Shown here: positions 2,774-52,466 of the stretch, piece after piece | Layout of the letters: every line of letters begins with the position of its first letter | Numbering within the stretch: the first letter of the stretch is position 1 | Assembly: GCA_025362315.1 (NCBI GenBank) | Contig: JANYGP010000075.1 | Span: 1 to 64,000 of the forward strand | Reading direction: 5' to 3' | Length of the DNA stretch: 64,000 nt | Origin: Polaromonas sp. | GTDB lineage: Bacteria; Pseudomonadota; Gammaproteobacteria; Burkholderiales; Burkholderiaceae_C | Made by a program: the position numbers and the translations under genes | Notes under the pieces: model-generated | Databases searched by the model: none | What the model was told of the DNA's origin: nothing | The model's input: only the letters and a program-made list of their open reading frames with translations

Positions 2774-3057
2774 TGAACACCGCCAATCTGTGCCAAAAAC
2801 GCTTGCAGGTCGTGTGTGCTGGTGAAGTAGCGAGATTGACCCCAGCGGCTTACCGTGTAAGTTACGCGGCCATCATCAGCGCGTGTGCTGGTTTGCAGTG
2901 TGTGGCCATGCAGTGCGAATTGCGCTTGAAGTGTGGCTATCTGCTTTTGAATGTTGCCTAAATTTTCAGCAGTTGGTAAACTTGCGGTGTTTGTTTTAAA
3001 GTTTGCGTATTGCCCGGTTGTGCCCGGGCTTTCGCTTTTATGGGTGTGCTGGTTCAT
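2770..3057 (-). CDS. Hypothetical element protein
   Basis: A 95-residue soluble protein with no recognised family. The N-terminal third is polar and Thr/Ser-rich. The middle (GNIQKQIATLQAQFALHGH) looks helical, and the C-terminal half (VTYTVSRWGQSRYFTSTHDLQAFLAQIG) has a strand-strand-helix look. Four-base ATGA overlaps link it to both neighbours, so it is co-translated with the helix-turn-helix protein and the primase-like protein. Function unknown. Confidence 0.55.
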   Translation of the reverse strand: MNQHTHKSESPGTTGQYANFKTNTASLPTAENLGNIQKQIATLQAQFALHGHTLQTSTRADDGRVTYTVSRWGQSRYFTSTHDLQAFLAQIGGVQ

Positions 3058-3272
3058 GCCGCCACCCCCAGCACGCGGCGCAGTTCAGCGACGGGCCAAG
3101 CCAAGCGGCCATGAATACGCACCGGGCGCAATGGGCCATTTTCAAAGCAAGCCCACGACCGCAGTGTTTGCTGTTTGCGCAACAACATATAAGCTGCGTG
3201 CGCAGTATCAACATGGGGTTTAGTCACCAGTTCCAGGGCGGGAAACTGTCCTTTCTCGATTTGCATATTCAC
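3054..3272 (-). CDS. Helix-turn-helix protein (excisionase/AlpA-like)
   Basis: A 72-residue protein with an AAYMLLRKQQTLRSWA helix-turn-helix followed by a wing-like PVRIHGRLAWPVAELRRVL. This is the layout of MerR/AlpA-like excisionases and small regulators in genomic islands, where such proteins direct excision or control the operon. It is the first gene of the replication operon, with an AAGGTG ribosome-binding site close to the ATG. Two adjacent 11-bp repeats lie 62-83 bases upstream and could be its binding sites. Whether it acts as excisionase or repressor cannot be decided here. Confidence 0.65.
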   Translation of the reverse strand: MNMQIEKGQFPALELVTKPHVDTAHAAYMLLRKQQTLRSWACFENGPLRPVRIHGRLAWPVAELRRVLGVAA

Positions 3273-3333
3273 CTTTCAAAACACGTTGATTCGTGTCGTG
3301 AGGTGAATTTTTCTGTCCCCGACTTTTCCCAAC

Positions 3334-3355
3334 AAAAGCCCGATAAAAGCCCGAT
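3334..3355. promoter_or_regulatory. Tandem 11-bp repeat upstream of the element operon
   Basis: AAAAGCCCGAT occurs twice with no gap (3334-3344 and 3345-3355), between the start of the helix-turn-helix gene and the end of the 233-residue gene. A position just upstream of an operon led by a small DNA-binding protein suggests operator or excisionase sites. No clear promoter hexamers were assigned. Confidence 0.45.
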
Positions 3356-3372
3356 ATTCGGGGCGCTATCGG

Positions 3373-4074
3373 TCAGGGGCTAATAGTGTGACGTGTGCTT
3401 GATCCTTGCCATACGTTGGACAGAGAGTGAATTGGTGCAGTTGGCTTTATCTTGCCCTTGCTTACTGCCCATGCGCGGGCTTTGCCCTTGTCCCATTCGC
3501 CATACTTCCCATTGTGGGCAGCTTTTAACCCGTTTCGCGACGCTTCGCTTATGTCCAATTCGATTGACGACCACTCATATTCAAGCTCTGCAATCAATGC
3601 GGACTTTTTAAGAGCGCTAACCTGCTTTTCTGGCAAACCATCAGTCACCACGGGCGCGGCCACTGTCCCATTTTGGACAGTGCTGGGTGGATTGGCCTGT
3701 GACTCGGTTCTGTTCGTTATCAAGTTTTGTCGCACCCAGTTCGGTAGATCACCAACAGGGATGCACTCCGATTCAAGCCATTGAAGCCCGGCTTGAGCTG
3801 CAAACTTTTCAGGCATGGCGGCTTCAATTCTTAGGTGAACAATTCGCCTGTTGGGGAAAATCTCTGGGTCAAAAAAATCAGCCAGTAGAGCTCTATCCCA
3901 TTCGCTACTTTGCGCAGATTCCCACGCAAAAAGGATGCATGTCGCCGCTTCAACTGACACGCCAAAGCATTCCTCGAACTCCGACCCGGCTGTGATGCAG
4001 TCCCGTATGATCGCGGCCTCCAGCCAGTCCAGCGGCTGCGGCTTTTTGAGCACGTCGAATAGTTGTTTGTCCAT
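3373..4074 (-). CDS. Hypothetical protein next to the integrase
   Basis: A 233-residue protein of unknown family. The N-terminal half (about 1-115) is folded-looking and mixed alpha/beta (FDVLKKPQPLDWLEAAIIRD near the start). A Pro/Thr/Val-rich linker (about 125-150) follows, then a charged helical segment (ALIAELEYEW) and a Lys-rich KGKARAWAVSKGKIK tail that could bind nucleic acid. It sits between the integrase and the helix-turn-helix gene on the same strand, with its own upstream gap of about 100 bases. It is presumed to belong to the element; no function is assigned. Confidence 0.55.
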   Translation of the reverse strand: MDKQLFDVLKKPQPLDWLEAAIIRDCITAGSEFEECFGVSVEAATCILFAWESAQSSEWDRALLADFFDPEIFPNRRIVHLRIEAAMPEKFAAQAGLQWLESECIPVGDLPNWVRQNLITNRTESQANPPSTVQNGTVAAPVVTDGLPEKQVSALKKSALIAELEYEWSSIELDISEASRNGLKAAHNGKYGEWDKGKARAWAVSKGKIKPTAPIHSLSNVWQGSSTRHTISP

Positions 4075-45180: not shown

Positions 45181-46599
45181 TCAAGCGTTGATCGACTCAG
45201 CTGTCAACCTTCGCCAGGGCTGGCGCACCAGCTCAAACAATGGAGTGGGCTCTCGCTTCAAGTTCTGCTTGCCATTGTTTTTGTCAACTATTGGCGAAGT
45301 GCTGCCCAGCTCGACCTGAGCCAGCTGCTGCATCCAGGCCAGATCGATCAACCCATCAGGACCAGGCCTGGAAAAGATAAGCGCCAGCATTTTTTGTGCC
45401 GGCACATTCCCCTGGTTTGTTGCCAGCTGATACAAACGTATGGCTTCTGTGTAGTTAGAAGGAACGCCCGTTCCACGGTGGTAGCTCTGTGCCTGAGCGA
45501 AGTTTTCAATTGCAGTTTGCGCTCTGACTGGCGCAATGCCACCTGCGCGGTTGATGGGGGGGGGCGAACGGGTACCCGTCTTCTGGCGTTCGATTATCAC
45601 TGCCAGGTTGGTGGCAGCAGCTACTGACAGCAGCGCTGCACTTTTAAAAAATGCCAGTGCTTCTTCGAGCTGATTTGTATTGACCCTGTCCAACCCCATT
45701 TCAATTCTTGCATTTGTATCGCCCAGCTGCGCTGCGGCGGCCAGCAATTGCCGGTCCCGCAGTAGCGTGGTGGGGTTCTTTGAAACCAATTCAGGTGGGC
45801 TGACCTCTAGAGGTGCGAGCGGTGCCAGCCGTGATTGCATCAGCCACTGCAAATACATGGCACGTGGGGCATCCACGCGGCGCAACAGTTCAATCCACTT
45901 GTTTGCAGCTGCCGGGTTGGCTGCTGCCTTGCAACCCTCAATTTCACACCAGGCCAGTCCTGCAGCCGCTAGCGGTTCGCCAAGTTTTTGTGCCCGTTCA
46001 AACCACAGCGCTGCATCGGCAGTGTTCACAGTCAAGCAAATCCCGTGCAGGGTCAGCAGCCCTAATTGCCAGGCAGCATTGGCGTGAAGCTGTTGGAAAC
46101 GCTCCTTGGACAGTTGCCGGTTTTCTGCCAGCACGGTGCCTGAAGCGGTGGCACGCAGACGTTCAAGCGCCGATGTGACGCTGGCAGCTCTGTCTGAAGC
46201 GGGATTGTCTGAACCTGATATCAATGTAGTTTCAGCTGGGCAGGCCCCGCGGCCCGCAAATGGCAACGCCGGCTCGCGGGAGCTTGTTGACAAAGAGGTT
46301 TTGTCAAAACCAGCTTGCCGACGTACTTTTTTTTCAGTAGCGCTCGGAGGTGTCACAGCAATATTAATGGACGGTGGCGAAAATTGCGGACCTTCCAATG
46401 GTTCTGGTGCGAGCGACCTGGCGCCTGCGTAAATGGGGTTGTGAGCCAAGAAAAATAAAGTGGTGGTCAACACAGTACTTCCACGCAAGGCTGCTCTTAT
46501 GCTGGTTGAGTTAAATACAAATTTTCCGACGCGCCCGTTCGAACGTTCAATCAGTTGCCTGGTCGCACAATGCACTTTTCGAGTCATGGTGATCAACAT
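45181..46599 (-). CDS. Sel1/TPR-repeat secreted protein
   Basis: A 472-residue protein with a hydrophobic N-terminal region (about 35-55: GSTVLTTTLFFLAHNPIYAGA), suggesting export, and Sel1/TPR-like helical repeats. The clearest are AALWFERAQKLGEPLAAAGL and YHRGTGVPSNYTEAIRLYQLATNQGNVPAQ. Such repeats scaffold other proteins. It lies 24 bases after the CsgG/HfaB-like gene on the same strand and is probably part of that operon, perhaps as an assembly or periplasmic partner (inferred). The start at 46599 or 46587 is uncertain. Confidence 0.7.
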   Translation of the reverse strand: MLITMTRKVHCATRQLIERSNGRVGKFVFNSTSIRAALRGSTVLTTTLFFLAHNPIYAGARSLAPEPLEGPQFSPPSINIAVTPPSATEKKVRRQAGFDKTSLSTSSREPALPFAGRGACPAETTLISGSDNPASDRAASVTSALERLRATASGTVLAENRQLSKERFQQLHANAAWQLGLLTLHGICLTVNTADAALWFERAQKLGEPLAAAGLAWCEIEGCKAAANPAAANKWIELLRRVDAPRAMYLQWLMQSRLAPLAPLEVSPPELVSKNPTTLLRDRQLLAAAAQLGDTNARIEMGLDRVNTNQLEEALAFFKSAALLSVAAATNLAVIIERQKTGTRSPPPINRAGGIAPVRAQTAIENFAQAQSYHRGTGVPSNYTEAIRLYQLATNQGNVPAQKMLALIFSRPGPDGLIDLAWMQQLAQVELGSTSPIVDKNNGKQNLKREPTPLFELVRQPWRRLTAESINA

Positions 46600-46623
46600 T
46601 TTTTAGTATCTAGTCCGATTTGG

Positions 46624-48390
46624 TCACTTTGCGGGCTTTGGTGCAGATGTCGCAGCGGGGGCCAAAGGCGCAGCAGGCGCTGTGTTGGACACCGTTGTTT
46701 TAGGCGCTACCAGCCAGCTGATACGGGTGGCGGTGTATCCCTTTTTACCGAGTGCAGCGTCAAAAGACTCATCAACGTTTTGCATGCTGCTGATGTTTTT
46801 GATAGCCACCAGGCTGGTACTGGCCAGCAAAGTCGGCATCAGGGCCGCGACGTCTGCCTCAGTTGCATAACATCCGACAGTTTCGGTGCCGGCACTGGTG
46901 GCGTCCATGATGAAGCCTGGCGTGGGGCTCATCCAGTCAGGAATACGAATGGCGTTGCTGGCTGAAATCAAAGCGTTTGGATTGGTTGTATTGGGCAGCA
47001 GGCGCATGACCGTACCGCCAGCCTCATGCAAAAAGCAATACAAATAGGACGCCCTTGACAGTGACGCTGATAAAAATATTTGTTCACCCACTTCAAAAGC
47101 AGGCCGCCCAACAAGGGGATTTTCAAGTTGTAAATTCAGGCGGCGCTCAAGCGCAGTCGCACCAAATGCAGCTTTTAAATCCGAGCTGCCCGATGTACGT
47201 ATTGTTTGTTTGCCGGGGCTGGTGGTTACGCCCTTTGATGACCAACCCACCTGTACCAGTTGCCCTGTCGCACTGAATGAAACAAAGTCACGCAATGCTC
47301 GTTCATAGGATGGAAAATCCACTACACCCGTCACAGCCAGGCCACTATCAGCCTGAAACCTACCCAGAGCTGCTGTGAATTCAGGGCTTTGTTCATCCAG
47401 GTTTGTGTCGTCCGAACTGAGATACCCCTGGCTCATCATGGACCGGTGGACCAGCTTGTTGTGTACCAGCGGCGACCCTTCGTCAAACCAGTCACGCATC
47501 TGTCTTTGAAAGTTGGGGTCGGTTTGCTCAAGTGTCAGGCATTGCCAATACGGTACGCGGGCCCATTTGCCAACCATTTCTATCATGCCCAGGTCGACCA
47601 GCGTGCGAAGCGCCCCGCCAGCACCAATCGAATAGTCCCGCCCCACATTAAATTTAACGCCGTAGTTGCCAATTCGGCCTGCCAGATCAAGACCTTGACC
47701 CGCGCCGCCAATGATGACTTCATTGGCCGAGTCAAGACCAGGAATTAGCGTGCGGGTGCGAAAGTCACCTAGGTGCAGCTCCAGCCCGATCACTGTTGCG
47801 TTTTTGCTCTGGCTGTAACCGGTATCCAGGCGGCTGGCAGATGTTCCTGCGTCAAATCGGTTGCTGATTACGTTTTGATCAACATAGGCAATCGCACCAG
47901 AGACATACAGGGCGGGGCGCTGTAGTTGCATCTGGTTGTTGTTAAGCAAAATAGTGGTCAGGTTCTGCACAGTGTCCTGCCGAGCTATGTCGACCTCATA
48001 GTCAACAAACCTGAATGCATGGCTTAGCCGCGACATTTGCGATAGCGCGGTAATGATCATGTCTTTGGCTGCAGCAGGCACCCGGCTTGAAAAGTCCGGG
48101 ATTGATTTGCTGGTGATAAGCGTGGTGGGCAACTGCGATTCGCGAAGCATTCGGTCCATGCACATCAGTGACTCAGAAAAGCTTGACAGAGAGCGAGTTG
48201 GGCGCACCGCGGGGCGGTCAGACGTGTAGGCGTAAGACTGAAACTGTCTATCTTTGCGTGCGTCCATCGGCGTTGCGCAACCTGACAAAATAAGTAAAGC
48301 CAGTAAAGCTAGCAAAACCCATGCAAGCGGCAATCGACCCGACTGCTTCAATAAGGCGTTTGAGTGGGTGGTGAATGTTCGGGTTTTCAT
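46624..48390 (-). CDS. CsgG/HfaB-like outer-membrane lipoprotein with PG-binding and DUF4384 domains
   Basis: A 588-residue protein. A lipoprotein signal ends in LSGC. A CsgG-like region (about 60-290) includes RFVDYEVDI, ALYVSGAIAYVDQNVI and TRTLIPGLDSANEVIIGG. A peptidoglycan-binding-like domain (about 340-385: FTAALGRFQADSGLAVTGVV) and a DUF4384-like domain (about 425-510: FEVGEQIFLSASLSRASYLYCFL) follow. CsgG forms the curli secretion pore and HfaB the holdfast anchor; this longer relative may export or anchor the fibre-like protein encoded upstream. Confidence 0.75.
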   Translation of the reverse strand: MKTRTFTTHSNALLKQSGRLPLAWVLLALLALLILSGCATPMDARKDRQFQSYAYTSDRPAVRPTRSLSSFSESLMCMDRMLRESQLPTTLITSKSIPDFSSRVPAAAKDMIITALSQMSRLSHAFRFVDYEVDIARQDTVQNLTTILLNNNQMQLQRPALYVSGAIAYVDQNVISNRFDAGTSASRLDTGYSQSKNATVIGLELHLGDFRTRTLIPGLDSANEVIIGGAGQGLDLAGRIGNYGVKFNVGRDYSIGAGGALRTLVDLGMIEMVGKWARVPYWQCLTLEQTDPNFQRQMRDWFDEGSPLVHNKLVHRSMMSQGYLSSDDTNLDEQSPEFTAALGRFQADSGLAVTGVVDFPSYERALRDFVSFSATGQLVQVGWSSKGVTTSPGKQTIRTSGSSDLKAAFGATALERRLNLQLENPLVGRPAFEVGEQIFLSASLSRASYLYCFLHEAGGTVMRLLPNTTNPNALISASNAIRIPDWMSPTPGFIMDATSAGTETVGCYATEADVAALMPTLLASTSLVAIKNISSMQNVDESFDAALGKKGYTATRISWLVAPKTTVSNTAPAAPLAPAATSAPKPAK

Positions 48391-48462
48391 AATGGGCTCG
48401 CGTTGCGTTGAGAACGGTCGTTAAAGCTCTTTAAAGCAATGACTGGTCTGAAAATGCTTTGG

Positions 48463-48885
48463 CTAATTACAAATATTGACCAGGTCACCGCGCAACACCA
48501 CGATTTGCTGATTTGGTTTAACACCAGCGCCTGTTGTGATGCCGGGTGGGTTGACCACTGAGCCAATGTTCTGGGTGCAGGTGGTTTTAAATCCGTCGCT
48601 TGCGGCCGTGTTGACAACATCTTTTTCCGTCAGGATGTCGCCCTTGTTGCCTGAAAAAGCCTTGGCTTCGTAGCGTGCGATCTTGGCTCGTTGCCAGGGC
48701 GGAATTTCAGCCACCGGGCTGATGTTGCCGGAGCGCGGTGCAGAACCATTTGGCAAGCCCTGAATAATGACTTTGGACTCAAGGCGTATGGGGTCCTCAC
48801 CCGGCGCGTTTTGCGCCACCGCAAGCCAGCTGGTCTGCAACGCAACAGCACAAAGGGCACATACAAATTTAAAGCGATTGACCAT
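48463..48885 (-). CDS. Small secreted protein of the fibre-like locus
   Basis: A 140-residue protein with a signal peptide (FVCALCAVALQTSWLAVAQ). The mature part has a Cys pair, one in KTTCTQNIGSVVNPPG and one at the very end (LVNICN), possibly disulfide-bonded. No family is assigned. Its place between the repeat protein and the CsgG/HfaB-like gene suggests a chaperone, minor subunit or HfaA-like partner (inferred). Confidence 0.65.
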   Translation of the reverse strand: MVNRFKFVCALCAVALQTSWLAVAQNAPGEDPIRLESKVIIQGLPNGSAPRSGNISPVAEIPPWQRAKIARYEAKAFSGNKGDILTEKDVVNTAASDGFKTTCTQNIGSVVNPPGITTGAGVKPNQQIVVLRGDLVNICN

Positions 48886-48902
48886 GATGATGCTCCTGCG
48901 AA

Positions 48903-48942
48903 AAAGAAAAAAAGAGCCAGTCCGCTACATGACGGGCTGACC
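48903..48942 (-). terminator. Intrinsic terminator after the repeat-protein gene
   Basis: On the minus strand GTCAGCCCG pairs with GCGGACTGGC around a short loop, with one mismatch, followed by a T run. It lies between the repeat-protein gene and the rest of the operon, so most transcripts would stop after the first gene and only read-through would reach the export genes. Confidence 0.7.
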
Positions 48943-48968
48943 CTTTTTTAAAACGAGTCAGCTAAATC

Positions 48969-49676
48969 TCAACGGCAGCCATTTGGGCAAGGATCTTTTG
49001 GTTCATCGCATGCGTCGTTGGACGCGATGTTTTGAATCGCATGGCTGTTGCGGCCTAATGCAGAGTTGAGCAACGAGCCGCCCACCACGTAAGTAGACTG
49101 ATTGGACAAGCCTGCAATCGTGACCTTGCCAAAGTTTGACGACAGGTTTTGAGTTGCACGGGCACCAGAACCGTCGGCCAGGTTGGAAATAGTGCCGTGT
49201 GTCCCCCCCACTGTTTGGTTAGATGTTCCAGTAATCAAAATGCCATTACCGTCGTTGCTGGCAAGGTTTTGCAGTGCTTCTGCACCGCCGCCTTTTGCTT
49301 TGTTCAACACACTTGTTCCTACCAAAGCGGTGCTTTGGTTAGACACGCCGCCTCTTGCCACTTCTACTTTTCCAGCGTTTGACGATACGTTCTGGTTAGC
49401 CCAGTCATTGACGTTGACTGACTCGTTGCTCACGGTGGCACCTACTGCAGTCGTGGTTTGATTTGACGTGCCTTTAATTTGAATGTCACCTGCATTGCTC
49501 GAAACGTTCTGCATTGCAGTATTGCCTGCATGTGACTTGTTCGACACGATGGACGACGTCAATGCAGCGGTTTGGTTTGATGTCCCGGAGATGGTGATGG
49601 CTGAAGGAGATACAGGGCCAGCAGCCATGGCTGCAGCGGCACATGCACTAAGCGCAAAGAATGCAAGTTTTTTCAT
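48969..49676 (-). CDS. Secreted five-repeat protein, putative fibre subunit
   Basis: A 235-residue protein with a signal peptide (about 1-19) and five imperfect repeats of 38-41 residues, starting near residues 27, 65, 104, 147 and 186. Each has the pattern GxSNQ(T/S), about VG-x-S/T-hydrophobic-x-N, then QN-hydrophobic-S/A-SN-x-G. Regular Asn, Gln, Ser and Gly with alternating strands resembles curlin or beta-solenoid repeats, though the spacing is longer than curlin's. The C-terminus is Cys-rich (CDEPKDPCPNGC). An adhesive or amyloid-like fibre is inferred from composition and neighbours; no named family was recognised. Confidence 0.65.
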   Translation of the reverse strand: MKKLAFFALSACAAAAMAAGPVSPSAITISGTSNQTAALTSSIVSNKSHAGNTAMQNVSSNAGDIQIKGTSNQTTTAVGATVSNESVNVNDWANQNVSSNAGKVEVARGGVSNQSTALVGTSVLNKAKGGGAEALQNLASNDGNGILITGTSNQTVGGTHGTISNLADGSGARATQNLSSNFGKVTIAGLSNQSTYVVGGSLLNSALGRNSHAIQNIASNDACDEPKDPCPNGCR

Positions 49677-50232
49677 GATGAATACTCCAAAAAAGTTAAA
49701 AAAATTTACTTAATGTTCGTGGGCACTTTCTAGAGCCTTTGAACCGTCAGCACGGTAGACATTGCTTGAGTCGGCTCGCTTTTGGGATGAGCTTCGCTTT
49801 TTGCTACGTCTGTAGAGCAGTGTCAGGTTCGGGCCAGCCGCTGCCAATACTGCGTTTGGGTTACATAACTGCAGATTCAACTTTCGGGAAACGGCATTGA
49901 AATTTTTGTTTTTCCACCCCTTGGAATGGCAAGCTTCACCCAGTCAACTTTGAATATTTTTGAGACAAAAATTGGTAGTATCAAAACATTTTTTAAGTAA
50001 CAGCATGTTTTTTATGTGCGCTTTTGCACATTTCAAAGCGCAAAGTGGGAGTACAAGCAACTTATTCGCATGTTTAAACGTAAGTTTTTGAGACGCTTAA
50101 GCGAAAAAGTTACCACTCGCAGTGTTCAGTTGGGCAGTCCATTGACTCTGCAATTTATTTTGAATACGTTTTTGTCAGCCTTTGTACCTGCGAGTTGAAA
50201 CCACTTGACGATCGTTTTTTGAGGAAAACAAA
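49677..50232. promoter_or_regulatory. Divergent control region between the fibre-like operon and its two-component genes
   Basis: This 556-base AT-rich region has no confident gene; a GTG-started 60-residue frame at 50016-50198 is judged accidental. Palindromes that could bind the LuxR-type regulator are TGTGC-N6-GCACA (50015-50030), GTTTAAAC (50072-50079) and CGCTTAAGCG (50094-50103). It should hold promoters for both the minus-strand fibre-like operon and the plus-strand regulator. Confidence 0.5.
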
Positions 50233-51054
50233 ATGACCAATTCATCTGCCTTCGCAGCCACTCCCACTGACAAAACATACACACCAGAGGCTGCTGCTTA
50301 CTTGGCTTCCCAGCCTGCATCTGGTGTTCACGGCTACCTTGGTACAACGCAACGGGCCGCCTCGACACTCGCATGGCCGCCTTTTTTGGTAGGCCAGGTA
50401 GAAAGGCCTGTGCGAGTGCTGTTGGTAGATGATGATGCGAACATTCGACACGTTATTTCCAGCGAACTGTTGGCAGATTTGCGCTGTGATCTGGTTGGGC
50501 AGGCAAGCAGCATGCGAGAGGGTCGACGGCTTATTTCCAATTGCGAGTTTGATGTCATGCTGGTCGATTTAAACCTGGGTGACGGCAGTGGGTTTGAGCT
50601 GATTGAACATTTAAAAACCGTACGTCCCATGGCGGAGGCGATAGTTATTTCGGCCATGGAAGATGATCAACATGCGCTGCATGCGTTTGAGCTGGGCGCT
50701 ACTGGTTACCTGGTCAAAAACTCGTGGTTTGGCAATTTTTCTCAAGCGGTGCTACAGGTGGTTAATGGTGGCGCATCAATCACCCCCAATCTTGCCAGGC
50801 GATTGCTGCATTGTCTTGACCACAGCAAAGATGACCCAAGCCGCCGTGCTGATTCAAAAAAAAAGGGTTTGTCAGAACGCGAACACGCAGTGCTGAAAAT
50901 GGTGGCGGTTGGCTATACCAGCAGTGAAATTGGCCTGCGCTTGTGCATCAGTGGACTGACCGTCAACACGCACATCAAAAACATTTACCACAAGTTGCAG
51001 GTCAAGAGCCGGGCGCACGCTGTTAGCTCAGCTCTGCAGCGTGGGTTGCTTTGA
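50233..51054 (+). CDS. NarL/FixJ-type response regulator
   Basis: A 273-residue response regulator. An unusual 58-residue N-terminal extension precedes the receiver domain (about 60-180), which has acidic residues at D66/D67, phospho-acceptor D112 in VDLNLGDGSG and K162. The C-terminal LuxR helix-turn-helix (about 207-270) includes LSEREHAVLKMVAVGYTSSEIG. AGGAAAAC lies before the ATG. It is divergent from the fibre-like operon, reminiscent of CsgD control of curli, and overlaps the kinase region, so it is its likely regulator. Confidence 0.9.
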   Translation: MTNSSAFAATPTDKTYTPEAAAYLASQPASGVHGYLGTTQRAASTLAWPPFLVGQVERPVRVLLVDDDANIRHVISSELLADLRCDLVGQASSMREGRRLISNCEFDVMLVDLNLGDGSGFELIEHLKTVRPMAEAIVISAMEDDQHALHAFELGATGYLVKNSWFGNFSQAVLQVVNGGASITPNLARRLLHCLDHSKDDPSRRADSKKKGLSEREHAVLKMVAVGYTSSEIGLRLCISGLTVNTHIKNIYHKLQVKSRAHAVSSALQRGLL

Positions 51055-51074
51055 ATCACTTGACAAGCCAGACG

Positions 51075-52466
51075 ATGTTACTCGCAACTGAGCTATTTCT
51101 TGCTCTGGCCAGTGGACTGTTGGCTTGCAGTGCCCTGGCTGGCTCAATCAAGGCTTGGCGTCACGAAAGCCATCCCGTTGACTTTGGCATGCGGATTCTG
51201 TCTTGCAGTTGGCTGTTTTGCTTAACTGTCGGGGCAGCTCAGCTGGTACTGACGAACGAAATGAGCTCTTCGAATTTGTTTTCTACATGGCTCGTTGACG
51301 CAACTCACGAAATCTTGCTGGCAAGCCTTGCTTTTTTCTTGCTAGCTGCAACAGGTGCTGTGCGGCCTTGGGTGTTGACAATACTTGGATTGCAATTTGT
51401 TGTCGGGATGGTTAGTGCATTTTGGACTGTTTTCAATTCACAGCCATTGACTGAAATTCAGTGGGCCAGCACTGCGCTGACACTGATCGCAGCTGCTTCA
51501 GTAACTTTATCGGTCACGCGGCAAGTACGCTACACGCATAGCCGCCGGAGCTGGTTGGTGCTGGCCGCGTGCGGGATGGGAATTGGTTTGTGGCTGTATC
51601 AGGCATCTGTCGGCAGCCCGCAGCAAAATGCACTTCCTGTTTTTAGTCACTTATATGCCTTGTTTGTTTTTGTTGTCTGGAAGCTCATTTCTTTGAGTGC
51701 AGATGCAGACCACACATTTGCCAATCCGAGTACGGCATTCAGCGGCGCGCATCATTTTCAGACTATTTCAGGAGTCAACCTGGATGAAGATTTCATTTCT
51801 TTAGCGATACGCGGCGAGCGGCAACGCATTTCGCACGAGTTACATGACAACGTTGGATCCCAATTGGTAAGCGTTTTATTTGCGATGCAGTCCGCCAAGC
51901 TGCCAAATAAACAATTTGTCATGCTGTCCCTTGAACAATGTTTGAGTGATTTAAAAATGATGGTGGACGCACTTGACAGCTTTGATGAGAATGTGACCCA
52001 GTCGTTAGGGCGCTTGCGTTATCGGGTTCAACATGCACTTGACAGGCAAGGGACCAAAATGCATTGGCATATTGATACTTCTCCCGAGCTTGAGGCTGTC
52101 TTTGGGATTCACGCACAGCAAGTATTACGAATTGCGCAGGAAAGCCTCGCCAATGTCATGCGCCATGCCAAAGCAACGACAGTAAAAGTAACATGCATTT
52201 ATGTGCCAGAGTTCTGTCACTTGCTGCTTGAAGTCATAGACAACGGATGCGGCATCAAAAAATACAATGACAACTGCCCGTTGGGCCAAGGGCTGGCTGG
52301 CATGAAACGACGGGCTGCAGCAGTTGGCGGTATTTTGCACATTTCAAGCCATGTCGACATGGGCACGTGTGTACGGCTTACGGTTCCTTTGCCGCACCTC
52401 AAACTCGCATCAAAAAAGGTCAATGTAGTCAAAGTGACTGTTGCAAAAGAAACGGCTAGGGCGTGA
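51075..52466 (+). CDS. Membrane sensor histidine kinase (HisKA_3 type)
   Basis: A kinase of about 463 residues from the ATG at 51075; a TTG at 51051 overlapping the regulator stop is also possible. The N-terminal part has six to seven membrane segments without a known periplasmic domain. It is followed by the HisKA_3 box RQRISHELHDNVGSQL (phospho-acceptor His in ELHD) and an HATPase domain with ESLANVMRHAKATTVKV and DNGCGI. It partners the regulator directly upstream. The signal sensed is unknown. Confidence 0.88.
   Translation: MLLATELFLALASGLLACSALAGSIKAWRHESHPVDFGMRILSCSWLFCLTVGAAQLVLTNEMSSSNLFSTWLVDATHEILLASLAFFLLAATGAVRPWVLTILGLQFVVGMVSAFWTVFNSQPLTEIQWASTALTLIAAASVTLSVTRQVRYTHSRRSWLVLAACGMGIGLWLYQASVGSPQQNALPVFSHLYALFVFVVWKLISLSADADHTFANPSTAFSGAHHFQTISGVNLDEDFISLAIRGERQRISHELHDNVGSQLVSVLFAMQSAKLPNKQFVMLSLEQCLSDLKMMVDALDSFDENVTQSLGRLRYRVQHALDRQGTKMHWHIDTSPELEAVFGIHAQQVLRIAQESLANVMRHAKATTVKVTCIYVPEFCHLLLEVIDNGCGIKKYNDNCPLGQGLAGMKRRAAAVGGILHISSHVDMGTCVRLTVPLPHLKLASKKVNVVKVTVAKETARA

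Follow-up and report, generated by a model that had tools for sequence, protein, structure and literature searches.

The window analysed here, a stretch of 64,000 nucleotides of Polaromonas sp. DNA, corresponds to contig C91 in a draft genome of 3.48 Mb. Four minus-strand genes in tandem on it probably constitute an export system of the CsgG type, resembling that of curli, whose cargo is an undescribed beta-solenoid protein. In order, these genes encode a repeat protein (rep, 235 residues; 48969..49676), a small secreted protein with two cysteines (cysP, 140 residues; 48463..48885), a CsgG-like lipoprotein that is the presumed outer-membrane channel (588 residues; 46624..48390) and, as the last gene of the operon, a Sel1-repeat protein (472 residues; 45181..46599). 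The intergenic gaps measure 83, 72 and 24 bases, with ends that rest on start codons chosen by script. The Sel1 protein, which a first-pass annotation had counted as an operon member, matches PF08238 at E 1.4e-10 and keeps its position in other loci. Upstream of rep, a divergent regulatory gap of 556 bp (49677..50232, unstranded) separates the operon from two plus-strand genes recognised by Pfam: a NarL-type response regulator with receiver and LuxR/GerE domains (50233..51054) and a HisKA_3/HATPase sensor kinase, whose TTG start overlaps the regulator gene (51051..52466). All coordinates and descriptions of open reading frames (ORFs) in the first-pass annotation were correct. Its comparison with CsgD, which diverges from the curli genes, stands insofar as a LuxR-type regulator and a kinase do diverge from the operon, but the likeness is loose, the regulator being a full response regulator of the NarL type that has a kinase of its own.

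The repeat protein has a signal-peptide-like N-terminus (judged by eye, as were those of cysP and the Sel1 protein), five repeats of about 40 residues (residues 21-220; 49017..49616) and a cysteine-containing C-terminal tail (residues 221-235; 48972..49016). Each repeat is terminated by QN[VLI][SA]SN, the successive motifs being QNVSSN, QNVSSN, QNLASN, QNLSSN and QNIASN at spacings of 39, 41, 40 and 39 residues, in agreement with the five repeats of 38-41 residues first described. When the residues of the mature protein were shuffled 20,000 times, no shuffle contained five of these motifs, the maximum being 3; the single-lag autocorrelation is weaker, with lag 12 best, followed by 41, 39 and 40, and is matched by 1 of 2,000 shuffles. 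From 193 repeat units of the homologues we derived a 39-position consensus, AGKVTISGTSTQTVSATGSSVSNEASGSGAVAVQNLASN, with conservation of Q12 (99%), N23 (97%), A32 (97%), Q34 (96%) and N39 (100%). Counted by end motif, 42 of 74 homologues have three units, 28 have four to seven and 4 have two or fewer, all of them approximate counts, given that some homologues are clipped at locus ends and a few motif matches are spurious. At least two cysteines lie within the last 45 residues in 68 of the 72 homologues longer than 120 residues. In one lineage, rep genes are paired in tandem upstream of cysP (L022 15-347 and 463-933; L058 4347-4826 and 4954-5412; L062 4245-4835 and 4951-5421), recalling the major and minor subunits CsgA and CsgB, and the rep profile matches twice in each of genomes G031 and G239.

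The AlphaFold2 model of rep is a beta-solenoid (mean predicted local distance difference test score (pLDDT) 85.9, predicted template-modelling score (pTM) 0.78) in which stacked two-strand turns are present. The first-pass annotation had left room for a globular, cytoplasmic protein; the prediction is elongated, and the N-terminus speaks for secretion. Searches of PDB sequences with the rep sequence and its profile returned nothing credible (best E 0.04, a polygalacturonase), and the Pfam matches of single members of the cargo alignment were scattered and weak and are taken as chance. A by-eye resemblance to the HfaD repeats was tested by unit search and profile comparison and dropped. We also rejected an ice-binding role, because the Foldseek list, in which ice-binding solenoids appear at E ≥0.26, includes all kinds of solenoid and because the hosts include Comamonas testosteroni and Delftia, which are mesophiles.

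The lipoprotein carries a lipobox, LSGC, found by eye, followed by a CsgG-fold part (residues 67-288; 47527..48192), a peptidoglycan-binding-like region (residues 322-358; 47317..47427) and a DUF4384 domain (residues 432-511; 46858..47097). DUF4384 (PF14326) matches at E 4e-11, above its cut-off, and does so in 63 of 63 homologues; PG_binding_1 (PF01471) matches at E 0.00095, slightly under its own cut-off, and in 60 of the 63 at E ≤0.01. The Pfam CsgG family (PF03783) has no match in the window's own genome, though 4 of 14 control genomes match, and at E ≤0.01 it is matched by none of the 63 homologues. With the NCBIfam HfaB model (NF037935) the protein reaches E 0.039 and 13.1 bits, against a cut-off of 300 bits and scores of 384-419 bits for above-cut-off matches elsewhere, and so does not qualify as an HfaB equivalog. 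In a profile-profile comparison, the lipoprotein matches a wider HfaB/CsgG profile, which also contains CsgG-type rows, at 97.2% (E 3.4e-11). Its predicted structure matches the fold of the CsgG subunit, and the match covers nearly the whole of that subunit, including the long strands 160-177, 193-209 and 214-233. The absence of a pore fold, which by the first-pass annotation would have spoken against its proposal, is thus not what the prediction gives, at the level of a single subunit. The earlier description of a CsgG/HfaB-like lipoprotein with peptidoglycan-binding and DUF4384 domains is borne out by profile-profile match, fold, DUF4384 and lipobox, and qualified by PG_binding_1, which stays under its cut-off, and by Pfam CsgG, which misses the protein. 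Cys284, Cys452 and Cys507 are kept without exception (63 of 63 homologues), which hints at a disulphide inside the presumed periplasmic part.

Both mature cysteines of cysP are kept in 70 of 70 homologues, as befits the small secreted cysteine-pair protein proposed earlier (secretion being judged by eye), and the protein ends in VVLRGDLVNIC. Pfam gave no match for cysP itself; the scattered, weak ones of individual alignment members are taken as chance. Its profile found no credible match among PDB sequences. Kinship with CsgE, CsgF and HfaA was undetected in profile comparisons, the HfaA profile comprising only 4 sequences.

At E ≤0.001, the lipoprotein matches in 53 of 250 genomes drawn from the window's family, and 30 of these 53 have a long match with at least 40% identity (both counts include the window's own genome). 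Scanning a genome collection yielded 58 loci, 44 of them named as Comamonadaceae or as genera that we take to belong to it (including Polaromonas, Acidovorax, Comamonas, Delftia, Ottowia and Simplicispira); the others bear broader or different names, and some are probably misnamed bins. The two sets hold 76 distinct lipoproteins, that of the window included, 12 of which occur in both. All four genes are collinear in 28 of 29 family-sample loci (L002-L030) and in 50 of the 58 collection loci; the eight non-collinear collection loci are contig ends, and in the one family-sample exception, L030, the two-cysteine protein has diverged and is uncalled by BLAST. Gene order, whose lack of conservation would have spoken against an operon of this kind according to the first-pass annotation, is therefore kept in dozens of genomes, and the linkage of the genes is established. 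L030 (808-1098 and 1085-1492) represents a minimal version, with a two-unit cargo of 96 residues and the diverged two-cysteine protein, and perhaps bridges towards more distant loci. Co-occurrence is likewise established: all 29 channel-positive genomes searched (own and 28 others, with G035 excluded) have a match to the rep profile, against 0 of 23 channel-negative genomes, hand-picked from the 197 without a channel match in the family sample. Besides the window's own genome, this 250-genome sample has two members of its genus, and both lack the system. When the lipoprotein profile was run across the class, it matched 10 of 321 genomes, own included, mostly partially or weakly, and spread outside the family is thin in that sample. 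Genome G113, which already has one copy of the system, contains a second, more diverged copy of cargo and channel (C1:1767236-1769706).

The gap between rep and cysP contains a minus-strand hairpin flanked by A and T runs (48908..48949). In the window, the predicted fold of this 83-nt gap has an energy of -25.9 kcal/mol (z -2.98), which none of 200 shuffles equalled, and over 70 loci the median best hairpin is -25.8 versus -15.5 for shuffled sequences (one shuffle each). There is no such difference in the cysP-channel gap (62 loci; -15.1 versus -14.9 shuffled) or the channel-Sel1 gap (42 loci; -16.3 versus -16.9). A strict rule demanding a hairpin plus a T run is satisfied in the rep-cysP gap by 23 of 70 loci versus 4 of 70 shuffled sequences (one each), and in the other two gaps by 6 of 66 and 1 of 65. 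The hairpin itself is established; since the strict rule holds in 23 of 70, many loci have it but lack a textbook terminator, and it is likely a partial terminator or attenuator or a stabiliser of the 3' end. This fits, without proving, a cargo made in larger amounts than its machinery, as would be expected of a polymer subunit. The claim is based on fold energies and strict-rule counts because general scans were at or below shuffled expectation, with 5 promoter sites versus 5.6 expected and none above chance in the divergent region, and 6 terminators versus 11.9 expected. Among the words enriched in 35 upstream regions is GGTAGTAAC, found in 8; kinship of the loci could account for it. Across the 45 genome-collection loci with more than 2.5 kb of upstream sequence, the divergent regulator is present in 41 and the divergent kinase in 37, the exceptions for the regulator being two same-strand best matches and two loci without a regulator match.

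In the mechanism that we favour, the kinase/regulator pair would turn the operon on, and the hairpin behind the first gene would keep rep in excess over the machinery. Rep, the two-cysteine protein and probably the Sel1 protein would reach the periplasm via Sec, as the appearance of their N-termini suggests. The lipoprotein, with its predicted subunit fold, would form a CsgG-like ring by oligomerising in the outer membrane, and its peptidoglycan-binding-like part may tether this ring to the cell wall. Unfolded rep would traverse this ring and then fold outside into the predicted solenoid, with two turns of about 20 residues per repeat and conserved Gln/Asn columns, whose open ends may stack head to tail to give a surface fibre or sheet, or may serve adhesin display. 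Because of its fixed place between cargo and channel, cysP could act as a dedicated cap, nucleator or anchor, like CsgF/CsgB or HfaA, and the Sel1 protein may be an accessory factor.

We examined 20 of the remote channel places in the 250-genome family sample. Of these distant loci, 11 have a different type of repeat protein upstream of the channel, and a small secreted protein separates the two; the cargo ORFs have 118-190 residues in L102, L103, L107 and L111, 483-490 in L105 and L108, and 986-1,285 in L115, L116, L117, L118 and L121. A profile of the small proteins from the six loci L102, L103, L107, L111, L105 and L108 is related to cysP by profile-profile comparison (hhalign, 92.5%, E 4.8e-7). 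A C-terminal signature, composed after the distant small proteins had been viewed, is found in 52 of 70 cysP proteins and 5 of the 6 distant ones, and is otherwise absent from the 1,093 real ORFs in the wide set, from 3,279 shuffled ORFs and from 3,771 other ORFs; the small proteins beside the five giant cargoes are without it. Thus cysP looks like a signature partner of the channel system. Homology of the distant cargoes to rep is unsupported because the best real ORF in the repeat-unit search, the L111 repeat protein, reaches only E 0.014. More tentatively, the lipoprotein with CsgG fold, peptidoglycan-binding and DUF4384 parts and its two-cysteine partner may form a general export platform, distinct from curli and the holdfast anchor, in which several unrelated beta-repeat cargoes (ORFs of about 100 to more than 1,200 residues) have been swapped within one bacterial family while channel and cap stay constant.

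The giant proteins (L115 6167-9880, L116 6350-9310, L117 461-4033, L118 835-3993, L121 6133-9990) bear 'ANSV...GN' repeats and adjoin a CsgG-like lipoprotein and a secreted protein of about 150 residues; L116, L117 and L118 have an additional small NQ-rich protein upstream. In L110 and L112, what precedes the CsgG-like lipoprotein is not a repeat cargo but another secreted protein, which has QQGVRCP close to its mature start; the channel family therefore has other partners.

Several results weigh against reading the operon as an exporter of a curli-like solenoid. The lipoprotein profile scores only 28.5% (hhalign, E 6e-4) against the single sequence of E. coli CsgG and finds no significant CsgG among PDB sequences, where the sequence search likewise gave nothing credible. 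Confidence in the channel model is moderate (pLDDT 74.5, pTM 0.59) and lowest around parts of the putative membrane hairpins, and the CsgG fold is common also to such proteins as FlgT and PelC. For rep, confidence spreads over the five AlphaFold2 models (85.9, 74.0, 73.6, 73.3 and 50.4), Foldseek gave no significant match (best E 0.026; FapC 0.033, CsgA fibril 0.34), the alignment with CsgA has a root-mean-square deviation of 8.6, and profile comparisons with curlin, HfaA and HfaD revealed no sequence kinship. Moreover, no such cargo lies beside the channel in 9 of the 20 distant loci, so the channel family may have other functions too.

In outline, the operon resembles curli export, with a CsgG-fold lipoprotein (by predicted fold and profile), a predicted solenoid of about 20 residues per turn whose best solved match is the CsgA fibril, and a divergent LuxR-type regulator. 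True csgBAC operons exist in Burkholderiaceae as PMC12822426 defines that family, which, with the CsgG fold and the CsgA-like solenoid, would suit an ordinary curli system that has strongly diverged. We consider this extremely improbable, because the curlin repeat (PF07012, about 22-23 residues, Q-x10-Q), CsgE and CsgF are each unmatched in 29 of 29 genomes at E ≤0.001, with the E. coli control positive. Of 74 cargo proteins, 5 contain X6QX10Q and none contains it three times, and profile comparisons found no match to CsgA, CsgB, CsgE or CsgF, which upholds, at the sensitivity used, the earlier statement that no such homologue is evident. The repeat unit has 39 positions here versus about 23 in curlin (23 ± 5 in PMC10192328), the channel is extended by peptidoglycan-binding-like and DUF4384 regions, and the two-cysteine protein and two-component regulation also set the operon apart from curli. 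It thus falls outside curli on cargo family, CsgE and CsgF, and outside the HfaB equivalog. With the Fap system (FapA-F) it shares a secreted repeat protein, FapC (9u4u_A) ranking second for rep in Foldseek at a non-significant E; FapD is a cysteine protease, and in FapF a trimeric barrel is joined to a coiled coil (PMC12822426), whereas the channel here has a CsgG fold and Pfam detected no protease domain among the operon's proteins. Neither FapF nor FapD appeared in the Pfam scan of eight window proteins; no search of the genomes was made for Fap families.

In the strongest rival reading, exported rep does not polymerise and forms, with the two-cysteine protein, a fixed surface complex that anchors polysaccharide or acts as a short spike, as HfaA and HfaD do on HfaB in Caulobacter. 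HfaB is CsgG-like, and HfaA and HfaD are surface proteins that need it (PMC6707917); in the Caulobacter set, too, a lipoprotein of the CsgG family has two secreted proteins beside it, one small and one larger, the channel profiles match as described above, with a weak NCBIfam HfaB hit, and a fixed complex could tolerate a cargo that varies in size from about 3 to 7 detected repeats. We nevertheless regard this rival as unlikely. Rep shows no detectable kinship with HfaA or HfaD, nor cysP with HfaA, in profiles of only 4 sequences each and with low-complexity repeats; the order is cargo, small protein, channel here versus hfaA, hfaB, hfaD in L090 and L091; and the hairpin behind the cargo gene suggests bulk production. 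The first-pass view that the cargo differs from both curli and the holdfast set is upheld at the sensitivity used. The channel also differs from that of the holdfast set, as the NCBIfam HfaB cut-off is unapproached and HfaB ORFs in L090, L091 and L095 have 338-404 residues versus 588 here. At another HfaB locus, L094, two secreted repeat-like proteins (2853-3737 and 2352-2822) lie on one side of hfaB, departing from the order of L090 and L091. It is highly improbable that the assembly exports nothing, the lipoprotein bracing the outer membrane to peptidoglycan while the solenoid stays inside. The peptidoglycan-binding-like and DUF4384 regions, the presence of FlgT and PelC in the fold family and the occurrence of lipoprotein relatives without a cargo gene would accord with such a role, but the CsgG match spans nearly the whole subunit, long strands included, and in all genomes tested the cargo and the close channel were found together, a pairing for which a purely periplasmic role may account poorly.

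The CsgG-type export of a new solenoid remains our preferred interpretation. The first-pass proposal of an undescribed fibre or adhesion system is supported as an interpretation, with 'fibre' unproven and polymerisation and adhesion deduced from fold and genetics. Among the open-licence papers listed by our literature search, we recognised none that treats this operon, whose undescribed cargo and helper protein make it a promising candidate for a fibre or glue that is new among bacterial surface structures. If this is true, CsgG-type export would be widened past curlin and holdfast cargoes; the natural series of cargoes with about 3 to 7 repeats would lend itself to studying how CsgG-type pores choose and release cargo, and a channel with a built-in peptidoglycan-binding-like region would offer a further handle on pore function. 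Bioengineering would possibly gain both a pore and a self-stacking protein that are new. Comamonas, Acidovorax, Delftia and Polaromonas are common in water, soil, sludge and biofilms, and to these genera the operon would add a conserved surface-polymer system.
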